Source: a virus
DNA length: 27,071 nt
Reading direction: 5' to 3' (one strand)
IMG/VR virus record: IMGVR_UViG_3300007722_000089
Coordinates: 1 to 27,071 of that record
Part shown: positions 3,738-27,071 of the stretch, one piece after another
Numbering within the stretch: the first letter of the stretch is position 1
Layout: the number at the start of each line of letters is the position of its first letter
Position numbers and translations under genes: made by a program
The notes under the pieces: model-generated
Told to the model about the DNA's origin: nothing
What the model saw: the letters and a program-made list of their open reading frames with translations, nothing else
The model's database searches: none

Positions 3738-3756
3738 ACTTTCTCTAATTAGAGGT

Positions 3757-4203
3757 ATGGCTACTCGCAAAAAAACTACTATCACCGCTAAACCAAAAAA
3801 AAGACGCAGAAAAGGTAGGTATATTACTGGTGAACACATTAGCCCTAAATGCGCAGGGACGATAAAATATCGTTCTGGTTGGGAGCTTTCTGTTCTTAAG
3901 TCATTGGATTACGATGCAAGTGTGACTTCATATCTTTACGAAGCTTTTCACATCCCATATTTAGCAAATATCAGAACTGGTAAAATTAGAAAATATATTC
4001 CTGATTTTTATATCACATATGCTAATGGCCAGAAAAAAGTAGTTGAAGTAAAGCGAAAAGACAAAGTAACGGAACTGAAGACGGCCAAAAAATTACTAGC
4101 TGGCAAAGCTTGGTGCGACAAAAACAACATCATTTTTGAAGTTTGGACAGATGCCACGATTGCCAGAATTCGCAAAGAGCTTGAAACTAAAGGCATCTTA
4201 TGA
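3757..4203 (+). CDS. T4 gp4-like head-completion nuclease (PD-(D/E)XK / TnsA-like)
   Basis: A 148-residue protein matching the head-completion protein of T4-like phages, thought to act on the head after DNA packaging and to carry a TnsA-like nuclease fold. Visible in order: a basic N-terminus (KKRRRKGR), YRSGWE at 38-43, an IPY strand near 66-68, RKYIPDF at about 78-84, and VEVKRK at 96-101. E43, D83, E97 and K99 form a complete PD-(D/E)XK set. The following helix and the FEVWTD strand also match the gp4 pattern as I remember it. It sits directly after structural genes, as expected. Its stop overlaps the next ATG (ATGA at 4200-4203). A perfect 12-bp palindrome (CTCTAATTAGAG) lies just upstream at 3743-3754. 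Confidence 0.75.
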   Translation: MATRKKTTITAKPKKRRRKGRYITGEHISPKCAGTIKYRSGWELSVLKSLDYDASVTSYLYEAFHIPYLANIRTGKIRKYIPDFYITYANGQKKVVEVKRKDKVTELKTAKKLLAGKAWCDKNNIIFEVWTDATIARIRKELETKGIL

Positions 4204-5306
4204 AAACACAATTAAAATCTTACATATCTTTAGTTATAGAAAATCGATTAAACAAAGATAGTAGCGATAATTTTCGGCAGGTAAAATGGTTTGAAAATCT
4301 TGGAAAATACATCAAAGACGCGCCTCCTTATTATTACGTTCATTTTAGTGATTTAAACAAAGTTGGCATTAATCCTCGCTACAATCACTCTACACCTTTC
4401 GGAATTTATGCTTGGGTATTGAACTCAAAATTTTTTGAAATTTTGCAATCGAACCCACAGAGATTTTTTGCCACGGATCGTCCTTGCGTACACATATTAG
4501 AGTCTAGCGTCGGAGACGAAGAGACTTTGTTTTTGGATCAAGTAGGCCCTGCTGAGATAAAGTTTTTGGTGGAATGGTTAAGAACAGAGGGAATGCAATA
4601 TATTCCCAATTTTCCACCTTCTCTTGCTGGATTAGCTAACAAACCAGAGGAGCTTCTTCGAAGAATTGTAGTGCTAGCCAGAGAGGAAACGGCCAGATTA
4701 GCCACTTCCTACCCTTCTGGAAAACTTTATTGGGAAATTCTAGAGGTGTTTTGTAATAAAGATTACAAATTATGGCGCAAAATATTGATGCAACTAGGCT
4801 ACCAAGGGGTTGTAGATATTTCTCCTGAGCACGGGATCATTTATCCTTCAGAGCCCATGCAGGCTGTTTATTTTTCCAAAAGTTTTCTAACACAAATTAC
4901 CACGTTGCAAAATCCGTCTTCAAACGAGATGTGCGGCAAAGGAGAAGACCCGGTTGTTTCCACGATTGCCCATTTAGCACCGGAAGCTGGCGCCACGTTG
5001 GAACCAAAATTCATAGAAAAATATTGGCCTAAAATTATGGGCTCTAGTGAAAAAACAAAACAACACGTTTTAATTAGTTTATTGAAAACTGGTCGTTCTG
5101 AGTTTGAATCCAAAATTAGAGAACTACTCAAAAACGAACCCATGCTTTTGTATGTCCTGGCTGGGGTCATGCTTGGGCCTCAAAACAAATTAAACTCGCC
5201 AGAGTTTGTTGAGAAATTCTGGAATACCTACAAAGATTTAATGAAATCTCGTCTTTTGGCAACTCAGCGGCAGATTCTACAAAATCATTTTAAAATCTCG
5301 GCTTGA
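4200..5306 (+). CDS. ART-like paralogue family member A (HFS...GIY...QAVYF)
   Basis: A 368-residue protein with no confidently known family. It shares motifs with the genes at 8332 and 9505: an N-terminal helix (QLKSYISLVIENR), then HFSDLNKVGINPRY (His near residue 49), TPFGIYAW about 16 residues later, a hydrophobic strand (CVHILESS), and far downstream GYQGVVDI then EPMQAVYFSKSFL. This order (H-[FT]-[ST], an aromatic GIY strand, a late Q-x-V-[FY]-F strand) resembles the core of ADP-ribosyltransferase-like folds seen in phage polyvalent and toxin proteins; that is inference. The last 110 residues are helical and may form HEAT-like repeats. It overlaps the head-completion gene by 4 nt, so it may be expressed late and even be packaged. 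Confidence 0.7.
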   Translation: MKTQLKSYISLVIENRLNKDSSDNFRQVKWFENLGKYIKDAPPYYYVHFSDLNKVGINPRYNHSTPFGIYAWVLNSKFFEILQSNPQRFFATDRPCVHILESSVGDEETLFLDQVGPAEIKFLVEWLRTEGMQYIPNFPPSLAGLANKPEELLRRIVVLAREETARLATSYPSGKLYWEILEVFCNKDYKLWRKILMQLGYQGVVDISPEHGIIYPSEPMQAVYFSKSFLTQITTLQNPSSNEMCGKGEDPVVSTIAHLAPEAGATLEPKFIEKYWPKIMGSSEKTKQHVLISLLKTGRSEFESKIRELLKNEPMLLYVLAGVMLGPQNKLNSPEFVEKFWNTYKDLMKSRLLATQRQILQNHFKISA

Positions 5307-7753: not shown

Positions 7754-8335
7754 ATGATAGATTGTGCGCTGGCTGCGGATATTTCCACAACACACGTTGG
7801 ATATTGCCTACAAAACAAAGACACCGGAGAGACTCTTGCGATGTCTTCCATAAATCTCCCAAGTAAAGACTATACTGATATTTGGGAAAAAGTGGATGAT
7901 GTTAAAATAAAAATGACCGAGCTTGCTTTGTTCTGGAAAATGGCCGGTTGGAATGTCGCATCCATCTATGTCGAAGAATCATTGAAAAATTTCAAGGCGG
8001 GCGCTAGCTCTGCTGATGTTATTGTGAAGTTGGCACAATTCAACGCGATGGTATCGTTTTTAATAAGAAATTTGTTTGGAATCAATCCTGTATTTCTCAA
8101 TGTCAACACAGCAAGATCTAGGATTGGAATCAAAGTCTTGAAGAAAAAAGGCGTGAAAAACGACACCAAAAAACAAGTATTGGAGCAAGTGGCTGCCAAA
8201 GTTCAATGGAGTTGGCCGACCAAGGTATTAAAAAGCGGCCCCAACAAAGGTACGACAGCTTTTGAGGAAGAGGCTTATGACATGGCAGATTCCTGGGTTA
8301 TCTGTAAGGCTGGATGTACTATTTATAGAGCATGA
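7754..8335 (+). CDS. RuvC-like Holliday junction resolvase
   Basis: A 193-residue RNase H-fold nuclease. The acidic residues expected for two-metal catalysis are present: D9 in AADIS on strand 1, E74 in YVEES on strand 4, and D176/D179 in YDMADSW on the C-terminal helix. The Lys-rich insert (VLKKKGVKNDTKKQ) fits DNA binding. Enzymes of this group cut four-way junctions and branched DNA, allowing replicative concatemers to be resolved before packaging; T4 uses the unrelated gp49. An AAAGGA ribosome site precedes the ATG. The stop overlaps the ATG of the next gene (ATGA at 8332-8335). A RuvC-fold nuclease with another branched substrate remains possible. Confidence 0.82.
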   Translation: MIDCALAADISTTHVGYCLQNKDTGETLAMSSINLPSKDYTDIWEKVDDVKIKMTELALFWKMAGWNVASIYVEESLKNFKAGASSADVIVKLAQFNAMVSFLIRNLFGINPVFLNVNTARSRIGIKVLKKKGVKNDTKKQVLEQVAAKVQWSWPTKVLKSGPNKGTTAFEEEAYDMADSWVICKAGCTIYRA

Positions 8336-8411
8336 GCCAAAATCAATTACAAAAATTTATTCTCCAAGAACTCAATCGCCATAAACGCGAAGGAGTTGTT
8401 TTGGAAGATCC
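8329..8411 (+). repeat. 83-bp direct repeat, copy 1
   Basis: This stretch matches 9502-9584 at 82 of 83 positions (one C/T difference within the codon after AATCG). It begins at AGCATGAGCC, which includes the start codon of this gene, and ends at GAAGATCC, after which the two copies diverge sharply. Confidence 0.95.
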
Positions 8412-9486
8412 AATAAAGTATATTGAAAAATTCATAGGCCCGGACTATTTTTTACATTTCACAAACATCAACAAACTAGGGATTAACCCTCAATATCAGC
8501 ATCACACGCCAGCGGGGATATACAGCTACCCTTTAGAGCAAAAAATATTTAATGAACTCGCGGAAGACAGAATTGATTATGCGAGTGATTATAAGTACCT
8601 TATTTTATTTCGCAAAATAACTGATGATAAAATTTATGATTTTGAAATAGACGATATCACAGATGACGAACTTGAAAGAAAAATAATGGTCGCGCGTAAT
8701 TTAATCAATTTTCATTATTTGGACGAAGGAGGCCGAAATCCGGTGACTAATTTGCAAACGTTTTTTCAATTAGTTCAAAACAGTTCTTTACGACCTTTAC
8801 AAAAAAGAAAAATTTTTTTAGCTTGCGAAATTGATGGTTTAATCGATCGAGGTGAATCGTTTATAACAAATGACATCGCTGCCCAAGCGGTTTTTTTCAA
8901 CATTTCAAAAATAGAAATTCAGCAAGTGATGAAAAATCCTTTATTAAAAGAAAAATTGTACCAAGCAATCGCCGACAACAGCGCACTCAGTTCAAATACA
9001 AGAAAAAATCTTCCGCAAAACATTAATGACAAAATTATTAACGATCCTTTTGCTGATGATTATCAGAAAGAAGCAAATTTCCGTTATGCTTCGGAACATG
9101 CTTTGGTTAAATTTATTCATTTTGAACCAAAAAATCATCTCTCAGGGGGTTTAAAATTAAAAGCTTTTGAACAACTTACATTAAGATTTCCTGAGAAAGC
9201 TATTCCCTATTTTTACCGCAGCAATCGAGAGTTTCGAATGACTCTTTATCGAAGAATTGATATTAAAATTCTTAATAAAGAGTTCAGTAAAATCATAGCT
9301 TTCGAAGATCTTAACTTGCTTTTAGCAGAGGCAGTCAATAGGGTTGACAGTCAACTGCTGGATGAATTAGTGCCTTTGTTTCCAGAGTTAAAAGATAGAA
9401 ACAGGTGGCAAGATTTATATTTTGCCCTAGAGGATAGAAAAGAAGGTGATGGTATTTTCATGGCAGAATTGCAAAAATTTAGATGA
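8332..9486 (+). CDS. ART-like paralogue family member B
   Basis: A 384-residue protein paralogous to the next gene and to 4200-5306. Shared landmarks: N-terminal helix QLQKFILQELNRH, HFTNINKLGINPQY with His42, TPAGIYSYPL, a hydrophobic strand YKYLILF, then EIDGLIDRGESF and QAVFF at 185-189. The pattern is reminiscent of ADP-ribosyltransferase-like domains (H at strand 1, an aromatic second strand, a Q/E strand near the end), but catalytic residues cannot be assigned with certainty. Residues from about 240 on are helix-rich with repeated Leu/Phe/Ala spacing, possibly HEAT-like. No signal peptide or membrane segment is seen. The ATG overlaps the resolvase stop, so translation is probably coupled. 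Confidence 0.72.
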   Translation: MSQNQLQKFILQELNRHKREGVVLEDPIKYIEKFIGPDYFLHFTNINKLGINPQYQHHTPAGIYSYPLEQKIFNELAEDRIDYASDYKYLILFRKITDDKIYDFEIDDITDDELERKIMVARNLINFHYLDEGGRNPVTNLQTFFQLVQNSSLRPLQKRKIFLACEIDGLIDRGESFITNDIAAQAVFFNISKIEIQQVMKNPLLKEKLYQAIADNSALSSNTRKNLPQNINDKIINDPFADDYQKEANFRYASEHALVKFIHFEPKNHLSGGLKLKAFEQLTLRFPEKAIPYFYRSNREFRMTLYRRIDIKILNKEFSKIIAFEDLNLLLAEAVNRVDSQLLDELVPLFPELKDRNRWQDLYFALEDRKEGDGIFMAELQKFR

Positions 9487-9501
9487 TTTTCAGGAGTGTC
9501 A

Positions 9502-9584
9502 AGCATGAGCCAAAATCAATTACAAAAATTTATTCTCCAAGAACTCAATCGCTATAAACGCGAAGGAGTTGTTTTGGAAGATCC
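9502..9584 (+). repeat. 83-bp direct repeat, copy 2
   Basis: Second copy of the repeat at 8329-8411, with one mismatch. It spans the start codon and the first 26 codons of this paralogue. The neighbouring sequence is only moderately similar, apart from a 23-bp match over the HFTNINKL codons and a 20-bp match over the AQAVFF codons. Confidence 0.95.
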
Positions 9585-10671
9585 TTTTGAACAGATCAAA
9601 AAATGGATTAGCCCCACAACGTTTCTCCATTTCACAAACATCAACAAACTTGGGGTTAACCCACAGTACCATTGGAGTATTACTCCTGCCGGTGTTTATA
9701 GTTATCCGCTAAATGAGTCCGGTTACGAAGCTTTAATGAATGATGACTTCTCTTTCGGAAGCGATTTTAAATACCTAATTCTTTTTTCAATAACAGAAAC
9801 GAATCAAATTTTTGATCTGTCAGAAGATATTTCAGACGAAGATTACGCAGCGAAAATTGATATCGTCCGTCAATTTCCCAATTTTATATTTAAAAATAAT
9901 GATGTTTCGGGATACCCGAATACAAACATAAAAAAACTATATATTTTTGTCAACTCAAGTACATTGACTCCTTTCCAAAAAAGAAAAGCGTTTATGGCAT
10001 GTGGCATTAATGGGTTTATAGACAGGGGCGAGTCGTTTATAACGAATGATATTGAAGCCCAAGCGGTTTTTTTCAATCCAAAAATTATTTCTCAGCAACT
10101 CGTCATAAAAAATCCGTTGCTAAAAACAAAATTACACGATATTGTGGTGGGTGCTAGCCAAACATTGAGTAATACTGGGTTTGAAAACACTCCTCAGAAT
10201 GTTGTTGATAAACTCCTGGCTGATCCTTATTCAAATGACAGAATGAAATCATATGCCATATCCCACGCTTCGTTTCAGGCAATAAACAAATTTATAACTC
10301 CGCAAATTGATTCCACATTTCGTAGGTCAGCCCTTTCTGCCATTGGCGAGAAATACCCCGAAAAAATTATTCTTTTTTTTGATTCACAAGATCTTAAAAT
10401 AAGATGTGATGCATACAGATATGCCAAACAATCAATTGTTCATAAAAATTTAACTCATCTCCTTGCTAAAGAAAAACACATTGATGGATTTATTGTTTTA
10501 GCTGACCGAGCTTCGCAAGCCTTGGCTGAAAAATTTTTGCCTTATTTGGAACAATTTAAGCACGACTCAAAGTTTGAGACTCTCTACTTCTTGCTGAGAC
10601 ACAGAGACGAAAACGGAAACAAAAGCGGAACCTTCCAGACAGAACTTGAAAAATACCATAAATACATATAA
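9505..10671 (+). CDS. ART-like paralogue family member C
   Basis: A 388-residue paralogue of the preceding gene. The ATG at 9505 is chosen over an upstream GTG at 9496 because AGGAG (9492-9496) lies 8 nt before it and because it aligns with the start of copy B inside the 83-bp repeat. Motifs match copy B: HFTNINKLGVNPQY, TPAGVYSYPL, FKYLILF, GINGFIDRGESF and QAVFFNP. Outside these the two proteins have diverged substantially, especially in the helical C-terminal half. Tandem duplication followed by divergence, with the first 26 codons kept or re-homogenised, is the simplest reading. Function is unknown; an ADP-ribosyltransferase-like or other effector fold is inferred. Confidence 0.72.
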   Translation: MSQNQLQKFILQELNRYKREGVVLEDPFEQIKKWISPTTFLHFTNINKLGVNPQYHWSITPAGVYSYPLNESGYEALMNDDFSFGSDFKYLILFSITETNQIFDLSEDISDEDYAAKIDIVRQFPNFIFKNNDVSGYPNTNIKKLYIFVNSSTLTPFQKRKAFMACGINGFIDRGESFITNDIEAQAVFFNPKIISQQLVIKNPLLKTKLHDIVVGASQTLSNTGFENTPQNVVDKLLADPYSNDRMKSYAISHASFQAINKFITPQIDSTFRRSALSAIGEKYPEKIILFFDSQDLKIRCDAYRYAKQSIVHKNLTHLLAKEKHIDGFIVLADRASQALAEKFLPYLEQFKHDSKFETLYFLLRHRDENGNKSGTFQTELEKYHKYI

Positions 10672-10773
10672 GCTTTGGTTTAATTTATGCTACTTAAGAC
10701 GATGGACAACCGAAGAAAGAGACTATACCTTGTTGGCTGTTCGTCAACAAAGAACAGGAAATATTGAAGTCGT

Positions 10774-11090: not shown

Positions 11091-12112
11091 TGGGATCATT
11101 TTATACAGATGGCAGTTTAATTGATTTTTTGGATAACGTTTTTGGTGGAGGAAGTGTTACAGGCGGCACAAATAACCTTAATTACAATACTGTATGCCCT
11201 TTTTGTAAAGAAGAAAATAAAAAACTCGGCAAAGCTACTATTAAAGAAAAATTAGCGATAAAAATCCCAGAGGGATTTGTTAAGTGTTGGGTTTGCGGTG
11301 AAAAAGGAAGAAATTTACTTCCAATTTTGCGCAGGTTTTATCCGCACGCAGTCAACGAGTTTCGTTTAAGGTTTTACAAAGAAATTGATGGCAGTAATTT
11401 TGGGGACAATAAAGACACAACCATAAAACCCAAAGAGGCCCTAAAGCTTCCAGATGATTTTCACTTACTAGCGGAGCACATAGAGAATCCACGCCCGGAA
11501 ATACAAGAGGCTTTGCGCTACCTCGAATCTCGCGGAGCAACTTATCGAGATTTGTGGTATTATAAATTCGGAGTAGCGCCAAGTGACGAAAACCAACAAC
11601 GAAGAATTATTATTCCATCGTTTGATGAAATAGGCAATTTAAACTATTACACAGGTCGTTCGTATAGCCATTTTTACAAAAAAAAATACATTGACTGCGA
11701 TGAGGGCAAAGAGTCGTTTTTCTCTAAATTGAATATTGTTTTCAATGAGAGCAAAATTGATTGGTCTAAAGAGTTGACCATAACAGAAGGTCCATTTGAT
11801 TTGATAAAATGCGATGACAACGTGACTTGTATTTTGGGTTCCAATTTCTCCCAAGACTCAAAGCTGTATTCCAAAATCATGTATCATGGAACACCAATAT
11901 TATTGGCGCTGGATAATGACATGGAGCATAAAACGAATAAGCTGGGCAGGATGTTTAGTTATTACAACATTCCTACAAGGATTCTGAACATCCCGAAACA
12001 GTTCAAAGATGTTGGTGAAATGTCAAAAAAAGAATTTCTTTCTGCAAAGAAAAAAGCTTTACTCTGGTCTCCAGAGTGGTCTTTGCTGGCCAAGATAAAT
12101 TCCATGTTCTAA
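11090..12112 (+). CDS. DnaG-type DNA primase (zinc finger plus TOPRIM)
   Basis: A 340-residue primase-like protein. The N-terminal zinc-binding motif is CPFC (C36, C39) with CWVC (C66, C69). A helical linker contains YLESRGATYRD, and the catalytic core has RRIIIPSFDE, a TOPRIM EGPFD motif (E233) and LALDNDME (D275, D277). It would make RNA primers for lagging-strand synthesis. It is shorter than bacterial DnaG and lacks a helicase-binding C-terminal domain or a fused helicase, as in T4 gp61-like stand-alone primases. The replicative helicase must be elsewhere. The start overlaps an upstream 19-codon frame. Other TOPRIM/zinc proteins are less likely given the motif order. Confidence 0.85.
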   Translation: MGSFYTDGSLIDFLDNVFGGGSVTGGTNNLNYNTVCPFCKEENKKLGKATIKEKLAIKIPEGFVKCWVCGEKGRNLLPILRRFYPHAVNEFRLRFYKEIDGSNFGDNKDTTIKPKEALKLPDDFHLLAEHIENPRPEIQEALRYLESRGATYRDLWYYKFGVAPSDENQQRRIIIPSFDEIGNLNYYTGRSYSHFYKKKYIDCDEGKESFFSKLNIVFNESKIDWSKELTITEGPFDLIKCDDNVTCILGSNFSQDSKLYSKIMYHGTPILLALDNDMEHKTNKLGRMFSYYNIPTRILNIPKQFKDVGEMSKKEFLSAKKKALLWSPEWSLLAKINSMF

Positions 12113-12135
12113 AACCATGCACAAATCACTGTATT

Positions 12136-12172
12136 CCAAGTATTTTCATTTCAACACAAAGAAAATACTTGG
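12136..12172 (+). promoter_or_regulatory. 12-bp hairpin over the SbcCD ribosome site
   Basis: CCAAGTATTTTC (12136-12147) pairs perfectly with GAAAATACTTGG (12161-12172), leaving a 13-nt loop. The last two stem bases are the first two bases of GGTGA (12171-12175), the only plausible Shine-Dalgarno sequence for the ATG at 12181 (complementary to UCACC at the 16S 3' end). Folding would partly hide it. No T-run follows, so a terminator is unlikely. Confidence 0.6.
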
Positions 12173-12180
12173 TGACATAA

Positions 12181-15100
12181 ATGAAAATTGCACACTTAGC
12201 AGACATTCACATTCGCGGCATTTCTCGCCATAAAGAATATCGCGAGTCTTTTGAAGAGACGTTTCAAATTCTCCGCACAGAACAACCTGACTTCATCTTT
12301 CTTGGAGGGGATATTTGGCACACGAAAACCCAGGGCATCACGCCAGAAGGAATTGAGCTACTTGTTTGGTTGTTTGATGGTTTAGCCCAAATAGCCCCTC
12401 TTCATATGATTCTTGGCAATCATGATGCCAATTTGACAAATTCCGATCGCCAAGATGTCATATCGCCAATTCTAACTGCGATGAACAACAAAAAAATCTG
12501 TCTTTACAAAAAAAGTGGTGTTTATCCACTAGAAAATAAGATAAATCTTTGCGTCTTCTCTTGCACCGACGAAGAAGGTTGGAAAACAGTGTCTCCTATC
12601 CCTGGCAGTCTAAACATCGCGGCCTTCCATGGCAGCGTACTTGGCTGCAAATACGAAAATGAGTGGGCCAGCCCACACGGCGATGTTTCTATGGATTTTT
12701 TTAATGGTTACGATTTTGCACTTTTGGGCGATATCCATAAAATGCAATCTCTTGCAATGAGAAAAAATGCCAACCACAAGCAAGCGCCTTGGATTGCTTA
12801 CCCAGGATCTCTAATCCAACAAAATTACGCAGAGGCAGTTAAAAAAGGCTTCCTGATTTGGGACATCAAAACTCGCGATGATTTTGATGTGAAATTTCAC
12901 GCACTTGAGAACCGCTATCCTTTCGTAACAATCGATTGGAAGGGCGATGTTCGGGACACTCTTGCCCAGATTGAACACATCCACCCAGGTTCTAGATTTA
13001 GAATTCTGGCCAAAGAGTCCATTTCCCAATTAGAAATTGCTCATTTGCACAATGAACTTAAAACAGTTCATGGTGTTGAAGAAGTGAGGATCAAATTTGA
13101 TCTCAAGGCCCATAACACGGATATTCTTTCTGTCGGCGCTGACGGCGCCGTGATTACTAAATCAAACATCAAAAACGATATTGACGGAATTATAAAACTG
13201 TTCGCAGAGTTCAAAGAGAAAAACAAAGACTCTCTAGAAGCCTATTCAGAGCTCTCTGATAGCGAAGACGTTAAACCCTTGGTCGATTCATACTTACAGC
13301 GCTATAACGCCCAGGAGGGCGAAGCAGAGTCAACTCTTCGTAACGTTTTTTGGAAACTCAAAGCATTGAGGTTTGATAATGTCTTTCGTTACAATGAAAA
13401 CAACATCATCAATTTCGAAAATCTATCTGGCGTGGTTGGCTTGTTTGCCAATAACAGGATGGGTAAATCAAGCATTGTTGGCGCAATAATGTACGGGCTT
13501 TATAATTCTACCGACCGTGGACCTATGAAGAATGCTCACGTTGTTAATCGACAAAAGAAAAGCTGTAAAGTCTCGATTGATTTCAGCGTGGCAGGGGCGG
13601 ATTATCGTATTGAAAGACAAACTGTTAAGCAGACCCCAGGTGGCAAACGGAGTAAAGCTGCGATGCAAAAAGCCGCTCTGGAGGAGGATAAGTCAGTCAC
13701 GCATCTTAATTTGTTCAAACTAGAGCCATCAATCGACCCAGAGAAGCCCCCGGAGTATTTTGAGCTTAATGGCGAGCAGCGCGGGGACACTGAAAAAGAA
13801 ATTCGCAAACTCATTGGCACCGCTGACGATTTTATGATGACGGCACTATCGAGCCAAGGCGGCCTTAATCGATTTATTCAAGAAGGATCAACCGCGCGGC
13901 GTCAAATTCTTTCGCGTTTTCTAGAATTAGATATTTTTGAAAAACTTCACAGTTATGCAAAAGAAGATTGCCAAATTCTTAATTCCAAATTGAAGAAATA
14001 TTCTCAGTTTGATTGGCAAACTGTGTTGTCTTCTAAATGTGTTTCAAAAATTGAGTTTGAAACCGAGATTGAAAGCTTGGAAATAAGCCTATTTAATTTT
14101 AGAAAAGAAGTCGAAGAGCTAAAAATCGCTTTTGCTATTATTGCACACAACACTCATTCTCTTGTTACGGAGGAGCAATTATCTCGCCAAAAACGAAGCG
14201 TGGATAGAATTTTCCAAGAGATTAAGTTGACCCAAGAAAATATTGGCAAAGTTGAAGATTTCATTAAAAAGCAAACTCTTATTTTGGAAAACTTCAAAAA
14301 AAGCAAGCAAGAGAAGCACATCGAAGAATACAAAAAGCGTTTAGCCAGCCAACAAAAACTACATATGGTTTTAGTCACATTAAAACATCAGTATGAGTCG
14401 GAGTTGGCGACCCTCAACAACCAAGAAAAAACTGTTTATAAATTAACACTCGTTCCTTGTGGAGACTCGTTTCCTACCTGCCGGTATATCAGCGACGCTC
14501 ACCGCGATAAAAATTTATTACCTGGGCAAAAAGAGAAAATTCAAAAAATTCTTTCCGAACTCAACACAGCACGCCAAGAATTTGATATTGTGAAACAAGA
14601 TAATCTTGAGGAGAAAATTGAAAAATACGAAGCTCTACTTCATAAAGAGATTGTGCTAGAAGGCGAGATCTCTACAAAGAAAAATGATTTAAACCATTTG
14701 AGTCGCAACGCGGAAGGTTTACAAAAAGATTTAGCGCGCGAGCAATTTGTATTCGATGAGTTAGAGGCCCGTTACAATGGCACGAGTGATGATTTGGAGG
14801 TACAAAAAGGCAGAAAGCTTTCTGAGTCGCTCACAGAATACCAGAACAAAATTAATGAGCACGACAAACGCCGGTTGCTGGCGGCTCACAAAATTGGCGT
14901 TCTGACGACTGAAATTGAAAATATCGAACAAGAGCAAGAAGAATACAAAAGCCTGCTTAGGCAATTGCGACTTTACGAGTTGATCTTAACAGTTTTTTCT
15001 AAAACTGGAATACCTGCCATGATCCTTAAGTCACAGCTTCCCGCGATCAATGCAGAATTAGAAAAAATCCTGTCCGGTGTTGTAGATTTTAAAGTTATTT

Positions 15101-15450
15101 TAGACGCCGATGCATCTTCTAACAATCTCGATGTTTACATCGAGGATTCTAATTCCAAGAGAATCATCGAACTTGCTAGTGGCATGGAAAAGACAATGAG
15201 CTCTTTGGCACTTCGTGTGGCTTTGTTGAATTTATCAACACTTCCAAAGCCAGATATTTTCATTACCGACGAAAGTTTTGATGGCTTGGACGCATTTAGT
15301 CTGCCAAAATGCGTCGAGTTAATCCAATCACTAAAGAATCATTTCAAAACAATTCTGTTGATTTCGCATTTGGATCAAATAAAAGAGTCTGTTGATACTA
15401 TTCTCGATATTCAAAGCACAGAAACAGAATCACACATTGAAATAATTTAA
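12181..15450 (+). CDS. Fused SbcD-SbcC (Mre11-Rad50 / gp47-gp46) recombination nuclease
   Basis: A 1089-residue single chain joining the nuclease and ATPase normally encoded by two genes. Residues 1-300 are a metallophosphoesterase with D8/H10, GGD44, GNHD (79-82), then AFHG and LLGDIH. From about 390 comes the Rad50/SbcC half: Walker A NNRMGKSS (K429), long coiled coils, a hook CGDSFPTC (C760, C767), signature ASGMEK (S1000), Walker B FITDE (D1030, E1031), and LISHLD. Such complexes resect DNA ends for recombination-dependent replication. T4 gp46/gp47 also take part in host-DNA breakdown. The hook has five residues between its cysteines rather than the usual two. An intergenic hairpin may control translation. 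Identification is firm. Confidence 0.93.
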   Translation: MKIAHLADIHIRGISRHKEYRESFEETFQILRTEQPDFIFLGGDIWHTKTQGITPEGIELLVWLFDGLAQIAPLHMILGNHDANLTNSDRQDVISPILTAMNNKKICLYKKSGVYPLENKINLCVFSCTDEEGWKTVSPIPGSLNIAAFHGSVLGCKYENEWASPHGDVSMDFFNGYDFALLGDIHKMQSLAMRKNANHKQAPWIAYPGSLIQQNYAEAVKKGFLIWDIKTRDDFDVKFHALENRYPFVTIDWKGDVRDTLAQIEHIHPGSRFRILAKESISQLEIAHLHNELKTVHGVEEVRIKFDLKAHNTDILSVGADGAVITKSNIKNDIDGIIKLFAEFKEKNKDSLEAYSELSDSEDVKPLVDSYLQRYNAQEGEAESTLRNVFWKLKALRFDNVFRYNENNIINFENLSGVVGLFANNRMGKSSIVGAIMYGLYNSTDRGPMKNAHVVNRQKKSCKVSIDFSVAGADYRIERQTVKQTPGGKRSKAAMQKAALEEDKSVTHLNLFKLEPSIDPEKPPEYFELNGEQRGDTEKEIRKLIGTADDFMMTALSSQGGLNRFIQEGSTARRQILSRFLELDIFEKLHSYAKEDCQILNSKLKKYSQFDWQTVLSSKCVSKIEFETEIESLEISLFNFRKEVEELKIAFAIIAHNTHSLVTEEQLSRQKRSVDRIFQEIKLTQENIGKVEDFIKKQTLILENFKKSKQEKHIEEYKKRLASQQKLHMVLVTLKHQYESELATLNNQEKTVYKLTLVPCGDSFPTCRYISDAHRDKNLLPGQKEKIQKILSELNTARQEFDIVKQDNLEEKIEKYEALLHKEIVLEGEISTKKNDLNHLSRNAEGLQKDLAREQFVFDELEARYNGTSDDLEVQKGRKLSESLTEYQNKINEHDKRRLLAAHKIGVLTTEIENIEQEQEEYKSLLRQLRLYELILTVFSKTGIPAMILKSQLPAINAELEKILSGVVDFKVILDADASSNNLDVYIEDSNSKRIIELASGMEKTMSSLALRVALLNLSTLPKPDIFITDESFDGLDAFSLPKCVELIQSLKNHFKTILLISHLDQIKESVDTILDIQSTETESHIEII

Positions 15451-16555: not shown

Positions 16556-19500
16556 ATGGCTAGCTCTCCTACACGACAACAAATATTAGAAGAAATTATT
16601 AAATGTGGCAAAAATCCAATCCACTTTATTCAAAATTACGTTTACATCCAACATCCTACTCGCGGCAAAATCAAATTTGATACTTACAAATATCAAGATG
16701 ATTGCATTGCTGATTTTATCGCTTATCGTTTTAACATCGTTCTAAAAGCTCGTCAGCTTGGTTTATCCACGCTTGTAGCTGCCTATTGTTTATGGCTGGC
16801 GATTTTTCACAAAGACAAATCTATCCTTATTTTGGCTACCAAATTGGACGTGGCGCAGAATTTCATGAAAAAAGTGAAGTTCATGAAAGACTCCCTCCCG
16901 CCTTGGCTTGTACTTGCAAAAGTTACGGCTGAAAGCAAAAAACATCTTCAATTTAGTAACGGCTCGCAAGTTAAAGCTATTCCTACTACAGAAGATGCTG
17001 GTCGTTCTGAGGCTCTTACCATGCTTATCGTCGATGAAGCTGCATTCATTGAGGGATTTGAAGAAATCTATAAAGGTATTTTCCCAACGTTATCTTGTGT
17101 CGTGGGCGATACTAAAGTCCTAACTCCGAATGGATTTAAAGAAATCCAGGAATTTTGTAAAGATTTTAAAATTGGGGATTATTTTTCTTTAAAAGGTGAC
17201 GTTTTCGGGAAAAACGGATTAGAACCACTTTCTCACGGATATGTTTCCCCGGAAAGTAACACCCTAAAAATTACAACAAAAAAAGGATTTGAGCTAGAGG
17301 TGACCCGTAATCACCCGCTCTATAAACTCTGCGATGACGGAGGGCGCATGTCCCCGGCTAAAGAATTAAAAGTCGGAGACTACCTACGCATCCAGAAAAA
17401 TATGCAAATATTTTCCAAAGATGATTCAATTAAAAACCATCCCACCGTCAAACGTATGACGCCAAATTTTGCTTACATGCTGGGTGGTTATACTACAGAA
17501 GGGTATCAACAAAAATCAGACGGAAAATATAACTCAATTATTGTTTCTAGTCCTGACGAAGAGTTCAGAAAAGTTTACCTTGACAATGCTGTGGTGAAAA
17601 ATTTCCACCCCCAAAAAAACACTATAAAGTTAATTTGCTGTTCAGTAGAGTTGGTCGATCTTTTTTCAAAAGTTGGTGTAGTTTCATCGCATAAATGCGA
17701 TGAAAAAATTATACCAACCTCGATTTGGAGTCAACCAAAAGCAAATATTTCTGCTTATTTAAGTGGATTATACGATGGAAGTGGGTCTGTTTCATCCAAA
17801 TCGATCATATTAAACAGCGCAAGTCACAAACTACTACTAGAAATTCAGTTGCTTTTATGTAATTTTGGAATAGTGTCTAGTATTGCAAAAAACAACAGAG
17901 ATAAAATCTGGCAACGTGAACAAAAAAATGGACGTTTAACGCTCGGTGGCAAGCAATTACAGTCCCTAAAAAAATCATGGAATTTGCATATTCCACGATC
18001 TGAATACAAAAATTTTTATGATCAAATTGGTTTTCGCATCAAAAGAAAACAAAATAGTTTAAAATTATTTTCGGAAAAATTTAAACAAAATGATGAAAAG
18101 TCTTTTAATATTCCTGTTAGTATTTTTTCTAAAAAACTATCAGAAATAATTGAAAAAATTGGAATGTCCGGTAGGGCATTGCGTTTCAAGGGGCTGAGAA
18201 TTGATAAATTTACTACAGACAGACTAAAAACTGTCAGCCCTACTTTCATCAAAAAACTAAAACAATTTTTGCCAACTTTTTTTACCAAAGATCATGAATT
18301 TTTGAACGAATTAGAAGGTGATTTTTTTTGGGATGAAATAAAATTTATCGAAAAATCAGTCAATAAAACTTACGATTTTACCGTACCCGGAACGCACTCA
18401 TTTTTGCAAAATGGTATTCTAGGAAGTAACACGGGTGGACGCGCTATTTTGATTAGCTCTCCGAAGGGTACTTCTGGTGTTTTCTACGACACTTGGGTAT
18501 CTGCCGAGGCAAAGAAGAACGAGTTCAATCCAATTAAGTTGCCGTGGGACGTGCATCCTGAACACGGACCTGACTGGCTTGCCTCTCAAGCTGCAAATAT
18601 GTCGGCCAAAGATTTGGCCCAAGAGCATTTGTGCGATTTTCAGTCTTCCGGTGATACCTATATGGCCGCGGGAGACATCCAATGGGTTAAGGATAACGTT
18701 CGTCCACCTAGCGAAATGAAAGGTTATACCAAGGACATTTGGGTATGGAAACACCCCACCCCTGAGCACAGATATTTCATCAGTGCCGATGTTAGCCGTG
18801 GTGATGCCAAAGATTACTCAACTTTTCAAGTTATTGATGTAAATGAGTGTGAAGTAGTAGCAGAATACCAGGGCAAAATTGCCCCAGAGAAATTCCATGA
18901 ACCACTCATTGAAATCGGAACCGAATATAACATGGCGCTTATTTGTCAAGAACTCAACACTTATGGCTATGCTTGTGGTGTAGAATTAAAGAAGAGCGGT
19001 TATCCTAATTTATACTACGAGAAATATCCCAAAGAATCTTTGCAAGGCTTGCCTATTAATGATGACGACGCAATGTGTGGATATACAACGCACCTTGATC
19101 GTCCACTCATGCTGGAAAAACTCGATAGTTTAATCCGCAACAAAATTCTAAAAACATACTCGTCCAGACTCGCAAGAGAGTTTGAGACATTTATTTATAA
19201 TGGCAAAAAAGCCCTAGCTTCCAAAGGCAAGAATGACGATTTGGTAATGGCCCTCGCTATTGGTGTATGGTTAGTTGATTTGGCGGCTGGCAAAAATTCT
19301 GTCAGCGGTTACGAAATGGCTAAAGCACTTTTGGCACAAACAGGACATTCTAGTCGCACAGTTGTAAATGTTACAGGTATAGACAGAAGAAATCCAAGTA
19401 TTTACTTCGGACAAAATAGTTTTAACAACAGCGGATCGCCGCAAGCCAGAAGCCCTCAGTACAAAGAGGCAATGGAGCAATATGAGGGCTTAATGCGAAA

Positions 19501-19558
19501 ACCCGCATTCGATCCTTATGATTTTTCTTGGGTATATCCCACAACCAAACCCAAATAA
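16556..19558 (+). CDS. Terminase large subunit (TerL) interrupted by an intein
   Basis: A 1000-codon gene encoding the DNA-packaging motor. The mature protein (about 555 aa after removal of residues 181-625) has the ATPase motifs KARQLGLST (64-72, a variant Walker A without the usual Lys before Ser/Thr, as in some phage terminases), Walker B MLIVDEAA (D160, E161) and motif III ILISSPKG. The RNase H-type nuclease domain follows, with SADVSRGD (D745), ICQELN and NDDLVMAL (D894/D895). This order matches T4 gp17. The intein sits between Walker B and motif III, in the motor's active centre, so the ATPase is expected to be inactive until splicing. No ribosome site is evident; coupling to the upstream gene is possible. 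A + strand AT-only hairpin lies over its stop. Confidence 0.93.
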   Translation: MASSPTRQQILEEIIKCGKNPIHFIQNYVYIQHPTRGKIKFDTYKYQDDCIADFIAYRFNIVLKARQLGLSTLVAAYCLWLAIFHKDKSILILATKLDVAQNFMKKVKFMKDSLPPWLVLAKVTAESKKHLQFSNGSQVKAIPTTEDAGRSEALTMLIVDEAAFIEGFEEIYKGIFPTLSCVVGDTKVLTPNGFKEIQEFCKDFKIGDYFSLKGDVFGKNGLEPLSHGYVSPESNTLKITTKKGFELEVTRNHPLYKLCDDGGRMSPAKELKVGDYLRIQKNMQIFSKDDSIKNHPTVKRMTPNFAYMLGGYTTEGYQQKSDGKYNSIIVSSPDEEFRKVYLDNAVVKNFHPQKNTIKLICCSVELVDLFSKVGVVSSHKCDEKIIPTSIWSQPKANISAYLSGLYDGSGSVSSKSIILNSASHKLLLEIQLLLCNFGIVSSIAKNNRDKIWQREQKNGRLTLGGKQLQSLKKSWNLHIPRSEYKNFYDQIGFRIKRKQNSLKLFSEKFKQNDEKSFNIPVSIFSKKLSEIIEKIGMSGRALRFKGLRIDKFTTDRLKTVSPTFIKKLKQFLPTFFTKDHEFLNELEGDFFWDEIKFIEKSVNKTYDFTVPGTHSFLQNGILGSNTGGRAILISSPKGTSGVFYDTWVSAEAKKNEFNPIKLPWDVHPEHGPDWLASQAANMSAKDLAQEHLCDFQSSGDTYMAAGDIQWVKDNVRPPSEMKGYTKDIWVWKHPTPEHRYFISADVSRGDAKDYSTFQVIDVNECEVVAEYQGKIAPEKFHEPLIEIGTEYNMALICQELNTYGYACGVELKKSGYPNLYYEKYPKESLQGLPINDDDAMCGYTTHLDRPLMLEKLDSLIRNKILKTYSSRLAREFETFIYNGKKALASKGKNDDLVMALAIGVWLVDLAAGKNSVSGYEMAKALLAQTGHSSRTVVNVTGIDRRNPSIYFGQNSFNNSGSPQARSPQYKEAMEQYEGLMRKPAFDPYDFSWVYPTTKPK
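17096..18430 (+). mobile_element. LAGLIDADG-containing intein in TerL (445 aa)
   Basis: Boundaries come from the extein break: FPTLS before it and TGGRAILISS after it. Residue 1 is Cys (CVVGDTKVLTPNG, block A). Block B is GFELEVTRNHPLY with the expected TxxH. Two LAGLIDADG motifs, MLGGYTTEG and LSGLYDGSGS, each end in an acidic residue, so the homing endonuclease appears intact. Block F/G reads YDFTVPGTHSFLQNGILGSN, followed by Thr as the +1 nucleophile. The penultimate residue is Ser instead of the common His, a known kind of variation. It should self-splice and home into intein-less terL genes. Confidence 0.93.
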
Positions 19559-19638: not shown

Positions 19639-20238
19639 ATGATTTATATTAAAAGCTTATTTTTGTCTTTGGTGTTTTTGATGCACAGCATATCTCCAAG
19701 ATTGCCTGTGCAAAGAATTGCGCCTTTGGCTTATCTTATCAGTAGTGCCACTGATAATCCACGAGAACAAAGTGAGATGATTGTTGTTAGTTTTTTTGAA
19801 ACCAATTTTGGCACTCCTCGTAGCATTCCATATGGTCTAAGTGCCGTCAATACTAGGGGAAAAGACCTGTGGACATTGACACAAATCTCACTCAATGCTA
19901 TACGTTCCGCACAGTTAGCGTGCGGCAAAAACAGTCCGGTTGCCGTCGTTCTGGGAAGATACCATTCTGGTCATTGCGTGGCTGATAATTGGTCACGAAG
20001 CGAAGCCAGAATGGTGGAAACAGCAGAGTTGTTTTTAGAAACGTATAAGTTTAGAACTTTAATGATGGGGATAACATGGCATTTCAATTTGGGCTTAAAC
20101 AACGTGTGGAATTCAAAACCTCCCGAGGAACAAGGAATGGTGTCATCAGTTCCATTACCGCCTACGGCGAACCCAAAGCCCCAGCTTACATTATCACTGA
20201 TTCCGAGGCGCCTTATGGGCTCGCAGTTGGTTGGCTGA
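19639..20238 (+). CDS. Secreted SLT-like lytic transglycosylase (probable), 3' end overlapping another gene
   Basis: 199 codons. The N-terminus (MIYIKSLFLSLVFLMHS) looks like a signal peptide or anchor. The rest fits a soluble lytic transglycosylase pattern: a helix ending VVSFFETNFG with candidate catalytic E54, PYGLSAV where family members often have GLxQ, LTQISLNAIRSAQLACG, and VLGRYHSG in the place of the usual AYNxG. Such enzymes cleave peptidoglycan during lysis or genome entry. The last 55 codons read through the gene at 20076 in another frame and look unlike a folded domain, suggesting a lost stop, a frameshift or a true overlap. An RNA hairpin hides the ribosome site. The enzyme class is inferred from motifs only. 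Confidence 0.55.
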   Translation: MIYIKSLFLSLVFLMHSISPRLPVQRIAPLAYLISSATDNPREQSEMIVVSFFETNFGTPRSIPYGLSAVNTRGKDLWTLTQISLNAIRSAQLACGKNSPVAVVLGRYHSGHCVADNWSRSEARMVETAELFLETYKFRTLMMGITWHFNLGLNNVWNSKPPEEQGMVSSVPLPPTANPKPQLTLSLIPRRLMGSQLVG

Positions 20239-21382: not shown

Positions 21383-21407
21383 ACAATCATTTTGGCTATG
21401 GTATACC
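21379..21407 (+). promoter_or_regulatory. Sigma70-like promoter of the purA-like gene
   Basis: TTGAAC (21379-21384), a 17-bp spacer and TATACC (21402-21407) with an extended -10 TGG just before it. Predicted start of transcription is near 21414, leaving a leader of about 14 nt that contains the GGGAG ribosome site at 21414-21418. This supports ATG 21428 as the start of the downstream gene. Confidence 0.6.
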
Positions 21408-21427
21408 TGGGCCGGGAGCGCCAAACG

Positions 21428-22597
21428 ATGACTGTAAAAATTGTGGTTGGGACAGATTTTGGTGATGAAGGCAAGGGCAGAATTGTTGACCTTATCACGC
21501 CAAATTTTTCATATGTAGCACGTTTTAACGGCGGAGCAAACAGCGGACATGTTGTTTATGTCAATGGTGAGAAATACGCTTTTCATTCCGTTCCATCGGG
21601 CATATTACATCCAAATGTTATTTGTGTGATAGGAAACGGTTGCGTACTAGATCCAAATCAATTTTTGGATGAGGTAGAAAGTCTTGTGACACGGGGAGTA
21701 AATCTTGCTGGCAGAATCCTCGTATCTGATCGCGCTCATCTTACACTGGCCAAACACAAGGAAGCTGATGACCCCTCTGGAAAGATCGGTTCCACCAAAC
21801 AGGGAATTGGCCCTACTTACGCTGACAAAATCTCGCGAGTCGGCATTCGTGCTTGCGATATCGCCCAAAGCGAAGAACCCGAACTAAGAAGAGCAGCCAC
21901 AAGAGGTTTCGAAAAATACCTCGCCAATACTTCGGTTATTCTAAACACCGCAATTGCCGAAGACAAGCATGTTCTTTGCGAGGGCGCTCAAGCTACTATG
22001 CTTGACGTAGATCACGGAACCTACCCGTTTGTCACCTCTAGCAATACGGTCGCTGGCGGGGCCTGCACGGGACTAGGAATTGGTCCCACTAAAATCACCG
22101 ATGTTCTTGGTGTATTCAAAGCTTACACGACCCGCGTAGGAAATGGACCCTTCCCCTCTCAAATGGAACCAGAGCTTGAAAATTTTATCCAAGAAAAGGG
22201 CCACGAATATGGGTCCACGACAGGACGAAAGCGTAAATGCGGGTGGCTTGATTTGGTCGCTTTGGAACATGCTTTTATGGTTAATGGTATAACTGAGTTC
22301 GCCATCACAAAACTCGATGTTCTAGATGGCCTAGAGAGAATCCCAGTCTGCTCAGGATACGGAGGAGAGGGTTACAAATTAATTTCGTACCCATCCTCCG
22401 CTAAAAAACTTGAAGAAATTAAGCCGATTTATTCTTATTTTCCCGGCTGGGATTCGACTGCCGGGATTCGAGATCAAAAATCGTTGCCGCAAAAAGCGAA
22501 AAATTTCATTAAGTTTTTAGAAGAAAGCTTGGGTGCTCGGTGTTCAATTATTTCAACCGGAGCAGATCGCGAAGAAGCCATTGTGTGTGCTACTTAA
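21428..22597 (+). CDS. Adenylosuccinate synthetase family enzyme (PurA/PurZ-like)
   Basis: A 389-residue enzyme of the family that joins aspartate to IMP (PurA) or, in some phages, to dGMP (PurZ, on the route to 2-aminoadenine DNA). It has GDEGKGR with D13, GGANSGH with H41, GSTKQGIGPTYADK, EGAQATMLDVDHGTYPFV, TTGRKRKCGWLD, TKLDVLDG and STGADR, so the IMP, GTP and aspartate sites are all present in order. Asp13, which I recall as replaced in classical cyanophage PurZ, is kept, favouring PurA or a PurZ0-like intermediate. The segment between about residues 145 and 180 is shorter than in E. coli PurA. ATG 21428 is set by the promoter and GGGAG site; a TTG at 21392 lies upstream of the predicted transcript start. 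The family is certain, the substrate is not. Confidence 0.93.
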   Translation: MTVKIVVGTDFGDEGKGRIVDLITPNFSYVARFNGGANSGHVVYVNGEKYAFHSVPSGILHPNVICVIGNGCVLDPNQFLDEVESLVTRGVNLAGRILVSDRAHLTLAKHKEADDPSGKIGSTKQGIGPTYADKISRVGIRACDIAQSEEPELRRAATRGFEKYLANTSVILNTAIAEDKHVLCEGAQATMLDVDHGTYPFVTSSNTVAGGACTGLGIGPTKITDVLGVFKAYTTRVGNGPFPSQMEPELENFIQEKGHEYGSTTGRKRKCGWLDLVALEHAFMVNGITEFAITKLDVLDGLERIPVCSGYGGEGYKLISYPSSAKKLEEIKPIYSYFPGWDSTAGIRDQKSLPQKAKNFIKFLEESLGARCSIISTGADREEAIVCAT

Positions 22598-24714: not shown

Positions 24715-24858
24715 ATGAAATATATTCTCAGACTTCTCGCAATCAGCTTAGTTTTGTCTGGTTGTCCAAGGCAACCAGCCACTGTTCAACATGACGCCAC
24801 TGTAGATGCGGTTGATGCCGCAGACGTGGATAGTGACTCTGCCACAAGTGATCAATGA
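24715..24858 (+). CDS. Small lipoprotein, 47 aa
   Basis: ATG 24715 follows AGGAAA by 6 nt. The product has a classical lipoprotein signal: MKYILRLLAISLVLSGC with lipobox LSGC (Cys17). The mature part would be only 31 residues, acidic (repeated DA, VD and SD), with few prolines. It would be lipidated and held on the inner leaflet of the outer membrane or on the inner membrane. Size recalls phage o-spanins (Rz1), but it lacks the proline-rich character and no partner i-spanin is seen; an envelope-modifying or superinfection-exclusion role is equally possible. The stop overlaps the thioredoxin ATG (ATGA). Confidence 0.7.
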   Translation: MKYILRLLAISLVLSGCPRQPATVQHDATVDAVDAADVDSDSATSDQ

Positions 24859-25139
24859 TCAATTTAATGTATTTTAAAGCTGCTTGGTGCGGACCATGCA
24901 AATCGTTGTCTCCAATGCTTACCGAAGTAGTAAACGGATTAGGTAATCTCCCAATGATTACTATTGATATTGACGAAAGGCCAGAAATGGCACTTCAATA
25001 TGGTGTTCAGTCAGTACCAACTTTAATTGTCGTTAAAGATGGCGCAGAGGCTTTTCGTCAATCTGGTTTGGTAACTCGCGGACGCCTCATGGAAGTCTTG
25101 AGACAATTCGCTAGCGCGAAACAAGTTCTGAACGGCTGA
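24855..25139 (+). CDS. Thioredoxin
   Basis: A 94-residue thioredoxin-fold redox protein with the active site WCGPCK (C12, C15), the cis-Pro loop SVPT, and the expected strand order ending in a helix (RGRLMEVLRQF). It would reduce disulphides in the cytoplasm; in T4-like phages such proteins typically serve ribonucleotide reductase. It is short, starting at strand 1 of the fold with no signal peptide. It is coupled to the small lipoprotein gene through a 4-nt overlap, an unexpected pairing of an exported and a cytoplasmic protein. Confidence 0.93.
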   Translation: MINLMYFKAAWCGPCKSLSPMLTEVVNGLGNLPMITIDIDERPEMALQYGVQSVPTLIVVKDGAEAFRQSGLVTRGRLMEVLRQFASAKQVLNG

Positions 25140-25173: not shown

Positions 25174-25500
25174 ATGGCAAAAAAATCTCTAAAAGAAAAA
25201 CTGATCGCCGAGTTCTCGGAAGCAATCAAAATTGTTAAATCTGAGGAACTTTCCTCCTCTGATAAAGCCGGGGAAATTCTTTCAGGCAAAGGCACTTTGC
25301 CTGAAGATTATTTGTGTGATTTCGGGTATTGGTTTGAAGTTAAAGAATTAGTAACTGAGGCTTTGCGTATCAAAACATTAGAAGAACTAGCAACAGAAGA
25401 GGAAGAAATTCGTGAGCGAGCCAAAAAAAATATTGCCCGTCTTGATAAGATCGCGAAACGCCTCAACGGTGCAAGCGGCGACTCCTCAGATAAAATTTGA
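25174..25500 (+). CDS. Helical hypothetical protein, 108 aa
   Basis: A highly charged, mainly helical protein (KKSLKEKLIAEFSEAIKIV at the start and an acidic-then-basic helix near 70-98) with a possible coiled coil. No Shine-Dalgarno sequence precedes the ATG, consistent with the leaderless promoter directly upstream. No family recognised. Its last 89 nt overlap the next gene in another frame. Confidence 0.6.
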   Translation: MAKKSLKEKLIAEFSEAIKIVKSEELSSSDKAGEILSGKGTLPEDYLCDFGYWFEVKELVTEALRIKTLEELATEEEEIRERAKKNIARLDKIAKRLNGASGDSSDKI

Positions 25501-25810
25501 GTCAAATATTGAAACAAAGCAAGAAGCGCTGCCGCTTTCTAAAGAGCTTCCCAAATTTACTCACGCCCCCCTAGAGAAAGCACTTCGAATTTCTTCTGAA
25601 AAAAAAGAAGACATTGAAAAACTTGATGAGCTCTACAACAACGGAATGAGAAAATTTAGGAAATACAAAGTTAGCAATCACGATCCTGAAATTGCGGTTG
25701 AGTTGGCCTTGTGTCGAATTTTGTACCAAGAGAAATGGAAAGAATTAATGAAAAAACATATTTCAACTTCAGTCTATTGGGTATTATTTAGCGAATTCGC
25801 GCACGAGTAG
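25412..25810 (+). CDS. Hypothetical protein, 132 aa, GTG start, long overlap with upstream gene
   Basis: GTG at 25412 is preceded by GAGGAA about 7 nt upstream, a good ribosome site, though the resulting overlap with the previous gene is 89 nt. A second GTG at 25469 would shorten the overlap but lacks such a site. The C-terminal two thirds are helical (EKKEDIEKLDELYNNGMRKF, then ALCRILYQEKWKELMKKH). No family is recognised. The 3' end overlaps the convergent metzincin gene by 23 nt. Confidence 0.55.
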   Translation: MSEPKKILPVLIRSRNASTVQAATPQIKFESNIETKQEALPLSKELPKFTHAPLEKALRISSEKKEDIEKLDELYNNGMRKFRKYKVSNHDPEIAVELALCRILYQEKWKELMKKHISTSVYWVLFSEFAHE

Positions 25811-26339
25811 CGCGCAAAAATTCTTGTTGATCGAGCCATGTAGGCTCGTAAGGTGTTCGGTGAGTGAAATCTCTACCGTTTATATCGAACATGGTTTCTA
25901 AAACCGTATTCGGATTCATCATTGCCTCTCCGAATCCCACTGTAGAGCAAATTGCGCGCTCATGTGGCGTCCTGCATATGTGCATCATTCCCATAAAATG
26001 TCCAAGCTCGTGTTGAGTCAAAGTTCGAAATTGTAATTCGTCTTCTGCGCATCGCGGGTCGAGAAAAATTTCGGTGGCTCCGGTTGAATAGTAAGCGGCC
26101 ATTTTCGTGCAATCTATCGCCAACCATCGACGAACCACTACGTCAACCCTGCCAAAAGCTAGTCTGAATGTTGGGCCTTTGAGTCGGTTCATGCTGGCGA
26201 TAGAAGATTCAATCCAGCGTTGATGAGCACGATCCCATCCTGCTTCCATGCCAACCCTCACTTCCCAACCGGGTCGTCTACTTAGATCCAAGTTAACGCA
26301 CCCAACCAAACAAATCAATAAAAGGATTAGTTTTTTCAT
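25788..26339 (-). CDS. Lipoprotein metzincin zinc protease
   Basis: A 183-residue protein on the minus strand. ATG 26339 gives a textbook lipoprotein signal (MKKLILLLICLVGC, lipobox LVGC, Cys14). The mature enzyme carries HELGHFMGMMH (H110, E111, H114, H120), the HExxHxxGxxH zinc site, and a Met-turn AMMNP (M141), which together define metzincins such as matrixins. It would be a secreted, membrane-anchored protease. An upstream ATG-less extension of 15 residues exists but would bury the signal. Phage metzincins are uncommon; possible targets are surface proteins or competing phage receptors, which is inference. It is convergent with the preceding + strand gene (23-nt overlap) and divergent from 26426. 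Confidence 0.88.
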   Translation of the reverse strand: MKKLILLLICLVGCVNLDLSRRPGWEVRVGMEAGWDRAHQRWIESSIASMNRLKGPTFRLAFGRVDVVVRRWLAIDCTKMAAYYSTGATEIFLDPRCAEDELQFRTLTQHELGHFMGMMHICRTPHERAICSTVGFGEAMMNPNTVLETMFDINGRDFTHRTPYEPTWLDQQEFLRATRARIR

Positions 26340-26425
26340 ATTATCCAAATAACTATAGTTGGGTTTATGCGCGTTGTGACACAAATAAATACATGCCTAC
26401 TTAAACTAAACAAGGAATTTGCAAC

Positions 26426-27071
26426 ATGAAAAAAAACACCCTTTTGCGTGAAGTGAAAAAGATTTCACAAGATTATTTAGAAAATCCACTTATTTTGGAA
26501 AAAAATTTATTTGTTCGCGAAACTGAATTAAAAACTCTTCGTGAGGCACTGGGCAAAAAATACCTTAAGTCTAACCCGGAATATCTCTTGGAAGAATACC
26601 GTGCCGGTGTTTTGATCCTAGAAGGCGCAGACGCTTTCACCAAAAATATGGAAGAGCTGGAAGAGGTCACCAAAGACCTTCTCACTCTCAAAGCTTATTT
26701 CGCTCCTCATGCCGCAAAGTTGCCAACAATTACTAAAAGTATCAACCTAGCTATTACGGAGATGCAAAAAGCCGAAGCTGAGATTACCCAAAGAGCTAGT
26801 GGAATCATCGGAAGCATTAAAGCTCAGATGAAATATGAGAACGCTCAGAGGTTCAACAGTTTACTAACGGAATTCAGCATCGGAGACGCAGCTAGCGCCG
26901 CGGCTAATTTTAGCCCATACGGTGGTGCCATAAATTCGGTCACTCCGGGAGGCCCTGGGGGCGCTTTGTTTGGTAATTTAGGCGCCTTGCCTGGGGGTCA
27001 CGTTGCTCAACGCGCAGGTAATGCAGTAAGGCACGCAAGTAGTGCTGGCAGGGCGGCTAAAGCTGCACTAG
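26426..27071 (+). CDS. Helix-rich, Gly/Ala-rich C-terminus protein, 3' truncated
   Basis: The frame opens at ATG 26426, with AAGGAA about 8 nt upstream, and runs to the right edge (215 codons seen). Residues 1-150 are helical and charged (LLREVKKISQDYLENPLI, coiled-coil-like EELEEVTKDLLTLK). After that it becomes Gly/Ala-rich (GGAINSVTPGGPGG, then HVAQRAGNAVRHASSAGRAA). The last part resembles amphipathic or membrane-active segments of internal virion proteins, but no family is recognised. The 86-nt upstream gap between it and the minus-strand metzincin carries an AAATAAATA element. Confidence 0.75.
   Translation, partial: MKKNTLLREVKKISQDYLENPLILEKNLFVRETELKTLREALGKKYLKSNPEYLLEEYRAGVLILEGADAFTKNMEELEEVTKDLLTLKAYFAPHAAKLPTITKSINLAITEMQKAEAEITQRASGIIGSIKAQMKYENAQRFNSLLTEFSIGDAASAAANFSPYGGAINSVTPGGPGGALFGNLGALPGGHVAQRAGNAVRHASSAGRAAKAAL

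Follow-up and report, generated by a model that had tools for sequence, protein, structure and literature searches.

A predicted membrane-tethered, matrixin-like metzincin lipoprotein encoded by phages and its tentative link to host lysis

The metzincin locus

The window analysed here is a virus record of 27,071 bases, taken as a whole, which carries genes for a T4-like terminase, an SNF2 helicase, a primase, and SbcC-like and RuvC-like proteins. Relatives of its terminase and helicase are distant and mixed. An open reading frame of 183 amino acids (ATG at 26339, stop at 25788 in the ORF list of the window) encodes MKKLILLLICLVGC, which holds both the signal and the lipobox of a lipoprotein, followed by a domain of 169 residues with HELGHFMGMMH and AMMNP (Table 1). 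The mechanical ORF caller places the start 15 codons upstream, at a TTG at 26384; the ATG was preferred because K-K and a hydrophobic core then directly precede the lipobox. E111 carries the same number as in the initial annotation.

Table 1. Features of the metzincin locus and of a possible partner gene, with positions in the window.
Feature	Position	Strand	Basis
Membrane-tethered metzincin lipoprotein (predicted)	25788..26339	minus	ORF, homologues, AlphaFold2, matrixin fold
Lipobox LVGC, residues 11-14 (L11-V-G-C14), lipidation of Cys14 expected	26298..26309	minus	sequence
Zinc site HELGHFMGMMH, residues 110-120	25980..26012	minus	invariant His/Glu in 13/13 rows of alignment A4
Met-turn AMMNP, residues 139-143	25911..25925	minus	M141 nearly invariant, P143 invariant in A4
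C77-C97, probable disulfide preceding the active-site helix	26049..26111	minus	paired presence/absence in A4
C122-C131, probable disulfide after the zinc site	25947..25976	minus	both Cys invariant in 13/13 rows
Divergent intergenic region, 86 bases, with the metzincin's own start signals	26340..26425	minus	
Signal-bearing protein of 199 aa, possible metzincin partner	19639..20238	plus	hhalign, alignment, HMM

The zinc ligands lie in the order H110-E111-L-G-H114-F-M-G117-M-M-H120, and the Met-turn (A139-M-M141-N-P143) sits 21 residues past H120. A six-frame search of the window shows the pattern HExxHxxGxxH a single time, and none of 400 order-1 Markov simulations of the window contains it. The metzincin gene is genuinely coding and its zinc site is intact, far more than chance would give.

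The gene is convergent with a plus-strand ORF (25412..25810), which it overlaps by 23 bases, and divergent from an ORF at 26426. A promoter-like GTCACA-17-TATAGT lies upstream of it at 26380-26352; matches of this kind are no more numerous than in shuffles, and a promoter for the metzincin at this place is only suggestive. No recognised lysis gene lies beside the metzincin in the window, a 27-kb fragment, and its neighbours have no known function. Also near the metzincin is a lipoprotein-like ORF of 47 amino acids (24715-24858), which shares bases with the beginning of a thioredoxin gene (region 24715-25139).

Predicted fold and related protein families

An AlphaFold2 model built from an alignment of 13 family members reached a mean pLDDT of 88.7 and aligned to karilysin and MMP-12 with a Z of 13.5 (VIA-align; rmsd 2.4-2.8 over 126-131 residues). 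Foldseek matched the model to myroilysin, MMPs, karilysin, archaemetzincin and snapalysin. The modelled fold is that of a small metzincin of the matrixin type. Profile searches were less telling: no model of Pfam, PHROG or NCBIfam reached its cut-off, with 14.0 bits for Pfam M10 (PF00413; gathering cut-off 24), and phmmer against the PDB returned only noise. Weak M10 matches were seen in 12 of the 13 family members (best E 8e-5).

The protein resembles the matrixins (MEROPS M10; karilysin, MMP-12) in HExxHxxGxxH, Met-turn and predicted fold. It differs from them by two extra conserved cysteine pairs, a membrane anchor, a CSPVGxG motif that separates the zinc site from the Met-turn, and the lack of a prodomain, for which the start of the domain about 10 residues past the lipid anchor leaves no space. 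Snapalysin (M7), one of the smallest metzincins, is of similar size and fold (Z 13.0) but is secreted without an anchor, and the window protein matches Pfam M7 weakly (11.8 bits, cut-off 25). Two phage M10 proteins in BFVD, a Zn protease of Lactobacillus phage 3-521 and A0A6J5P205 of an uncultured Caudovirales phage, have the same fold at an identity of 12-15% to the window protein.

Conserved residues and membrane anchor

Conservation was counted in alignment A4, whose 13 rows are homologues from unrelated phages. Every one of the 13 rows has H110, E111, H114, H120, C122, C131 and P143, and P23, G55, G113, G117, S132, G137, M141, D170, E173 and R176 are nearly invariant. The only departure from HExxHxxGxxH is found in L005 (HEVLHWYEWKH), where glycine is missing. 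The initial annotation had read a full zinc site with Met-turn, a lipobox and a metzincin from the sequence; the first two motifs are kept in homologues, the lipobox with Cys14 is clean, and the predicted matrixin fold agrees with the metzincin assignment.

C77 and C97 occur together in 11 of the 13 rows (shifted in L145), are both missing in L150 and L162 and never occur singly, and this joint presence or loss is the reason to regard them as a disulfide. Both pairs, C77/C97 and C122/C131, suggest disulfides and, together with the membrane anchor, an extracytoplasmic enzyme.

The anchor itself varies. A lipobox is present in eight members (window, L002, L005, L011, L033, the first copy in L136, L141 and L150), and an N-terminal transmembrane helix takes its place in four (the second copy in L136, L145, L146 and L152), L162 being counted in neither class. 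A similar juxtamembrane segment, P-(S/N)-(Q/H)-H-(D/N), follows both kinds of anchor. Phage G381, to which the L136 contig belongs, encodes one lipid-anchored and one transmembrane paralogue (3199-3756 and 11697-12383). Three of the four transmembrane forms group in the tree, L152 having no firm placement, and one or two anchor changes in the history of the family are possible. Since relatives exchange the lipobox for a transmembrane helix before the same segment, membrane tethering as such seems to be under selection.

The protein had been proposed to be anchored at the cell surface. However, in a Gram-negative cell the transmembrane forms would be placed at the inner membrane, facing the periplasm, and for this reason a tethered enzyme that faces the periplasm is more likely.

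Distribution and origin of the family

The family comprises 14 genes in 13 elements; a single Myxococcaceae MAG contributes two prophage-like loci and the rest are viral records, in agreement with the initial view of a phage-encoded protein. A tblastn search of 50,697 phages returned a single record, the 485-kb huge phage LR745208 (31% identity, E 5e-14). Further members came from IMG/VR contigs, by way of two-sequence and pattern scans, and from the two MAG loci, by way of a genome-contig scan. As far as the scans tell, which used degenerate patterns and are incomplete, the family is rare in viral_contigs.

A bacterial matrixin donor had also been envisaged, but no close relative was found in 84,980 species. 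A core-motif scan gave at least 119 stretches, and among the matches listed the only clear relatives were the two loci of the one MAG. Within Myxococcota, 1 of 379 genomes had a relative, namely the MAG already known. No relative was found among 291 genomes from the phylum to which a Bacteriovoracaceae MAG belongs (presumably Bdellovibrionota) or among 296 from that of a Saprospiraceae MAG (Bacteroidota), both searches being run without a positive control of their own. Altogether, 965 other genomes from three bacterial phyla held no family member. From these searches, the family looks phage-borne and discrete, with no bacterial donor in sight.

On the A4 profile, members scored at least 107 bits and generic bacterial HExGHxxGxxHxC proteins at most 37 bits, the one fair test being L142/L171 from outside the training set, as training members match by construction. 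L142 carries a family member split by a frameshift (10113-10693), either a degenerate gene or an assembly error. Among other candidates, L155 was dropped after the initial alignment with only 36 bits on this profile, L148 was at first aligned as a member and then left out, and L163 and L164 were chance pattern matches.

Gene neighbourhoods in relatives

In L005, L011 and L033, the metzincin lies downstream of baseplate and/or tail-fibre genes, amid holin-like, Rz-like and endolysin genes. In L011 and L033 the (baseplate and) tail-fibre genes come first, then those for small membrane proteins, the metzincin and endolysin, whereas in L005 the metzincin stands just ahead of the small membrane proteins. 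The holin-like (phrog_36209, E 0.003) and Rz-like (phrog_89, E 0.0035) matches, which are those of the small membrane proteins, are weak; the endolysins carry a peptidoglycan-binding domain. Beyond the metzincin, the lysis regions of L033 (4606-5364) and L005 (11833-12669) also encode two related proteins of no named family with HExxH-like motifs (PHEVGHV and PHERQHV).

Elsewhere, the metzincin adjoins a tape-measure gene in L162 (phrog_167, E 9e-14), lies near a tail fibre in L169 and within the tail module in LR745208. No clear lysis cassette adjoins it in L136, L145, L146 and L150. No lipoprotein neighbour common to the 14 loci was found with a strict filter, which missed the window's own lipoprotein.

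The protein encoded at 19639..20238 of the window is a distant relative of secreted proteins in L136, L146 and L150 (hhalign prob 93), which sit about 1.3-3.5 kb from the metzincin. It had no Pfam or PDB match, and its fold prediction reached a pLDDT of only 39.6; that it might be muralytic is a guess made from a motif.

The metzincin is the sole gene common to most loci across the carrier phages. Since no other gene is widely common to them, the pattern fits an accessory gene moving between phages, and the accessory character first ascribed to the gene, which has its own strand in the window, is borne out.

Possible functions

The function favoured here, if tentatively, is that of a late, tethered protease assisting envelope disruption and virion release. 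The metzincin would be exported and fixed to the membrane via its lipidated N-terminal cysteine, and its catalytic domain, with one or two disulfides, would lie in the periplasm or on the outer face of the membrane and cut a protein at that site. At a late step, cleavage of envelope proteins or of a phage lysis protein might let the envelope give way and the virions leave, with the metzincin supplementing the work of holin, endolysin and spanin. This role is proposed because of the analogy to the Listeria metzincin Mtz and the lysis-region position in three relatives. Mtz is phage-derived, has its gene past those for holin and lysin in prophages and sensitises cells to phage lysis, for which the catalytic glutamate is required (PMC8235301). 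The likeness to the Mtz/Tim pair is one of presumed role, as a phage metzincin outside the cytoplasm, and, in three relatives, of gene position near holin-like and endolysin genes; the pair differs in that it is Gram-positive and that Mtz is soluble and acts with a TIMP-like lipoprotein (PMC8235301). No TIMP-like partner was found for the present family, the ORF of 47 amino acids being the only lipoprotein-like candidate near the window gene. Spanins (Rz/Rz1) are alike by position only, as short, exported, membrane-anchored envelope proteins of the lysis region, but are non-enzymatic, whereas the window protein carries a protease site and lacks a coiled coil.

Proteolysis is not generally counted among the steps by which phages lyse Gram-negative hosts. 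A discrete, phage-restricted family of tethered matrixins in otherwise unrelated large phages, some of which carry it in a lysis region, makes proteolytic lysis testable by one catalytic mutant, and the family profile lets genes now without a family name be annotated. The wider proposal, that Gram-negative phages use a dedicated tethered matrixin in lysis as a proteolytic complement to endolysin and spanin, and that in some phages a lipid-anchored and a transmembrane copy serve the two membranes, is doubtful. Of the three roles suggested at the outset, release has the best, though indirect, support, and shaving of surface proteins the weakest; the third, a block to superinfection, is the main rival.

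Such superinfection exclusion, in itself unlikely, would mean that the tethered periplasmic protease keeps the DNA of competing phages out by cleaving either a periplasmic entry factor or the arriving phage's tape-measure or ejection proteins. An accessory gene spread across unrelated phages would suit this role, as would its placement on its own strand in the window, in the second copy of L136 and in L146, the presence of the gene at two separate prophage-like loci in a single MAG, and tethering on the periplasmic side, the place of phage entry. However, three relatives carry the gene inside a tail/lysis region, consistent with late expression, and the literature searched yielded no known exclusion protein with a metzincin fold. 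If exclusion were the true role, a proteolytic exclusion factor would be likewise unusual.

Ranking below exclusion and rather improbable is a protease of host takeover or lysogenic conversion, which would trim or degrade host envelope proteins in the course of infection or lysogeny, to the benefit of nutrition, stress handling or fitness, and have no part in lysis or exclusion. It is in line with the moron-like placement among varying neighbours and with a G+C of the gene slightly above the window average (0.47 vs 0.39), but several copies lie in late regions, and bacterial homologues outside prophage-like loci, which might show a benefit to the host, were not found.

That the protease shaves surface proteins or receptors off the host from outside is highly improbable. 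In E. coli, lipoproteins with Val at +2 are sorted to the outer membrane and those with Asp at +2 are kept in the inner membrane, and outer-membrane lipoproteins of Gram-negative bacteria mostly face inwards unless exported. By this rule, the lipobox and Val at +2 would direct the window protein to the outer membrane, but two lipid-anchored relatives have Asp at +2 and four relatives are transmembrane-anchored, both pointing to the periplasmic face; a Gram-positive host would revive this reading. Least probable of all is a virion-associated protease acting at entry, for which the tape-measure and tail-module positions in L162 and LR745208 might speak, since nearly all members carry an N-terminal export signal and a lipid or transmembrane anchor, and export is unusual for virion proteins.

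Other genes of the window

A gene at 21392-22597 encodes an adenylosuccinate synthetase that matches the PurZ-named phrog_1211 (E 6e-108). It scores 497 bits with the PurA model and 132 bits with the PurZ model (cut-off 300) and keeps GDEGKGR; by sequence, it looks like PurA rather than the Z-genome enzyme. The large subunit of the T4-like terminase (16556-19558) is split by an intein bearing a LAGLIDADG endonuclease. A protein of 1089 amino acids (12181-15450) joins a metallophosphoesterase to an SbcC-like part, as if an SbcD-SbcC fusion. Two tandem paralogues (8332-9486 and 9496-10671) share with a third protein (4200-5306) a segment of no named family, 'HF(S/T)(D/N)...G(I/V)NP', and similar segments are carried by two tandem ORFs of L150 (1896-3062 and 3221-4390).
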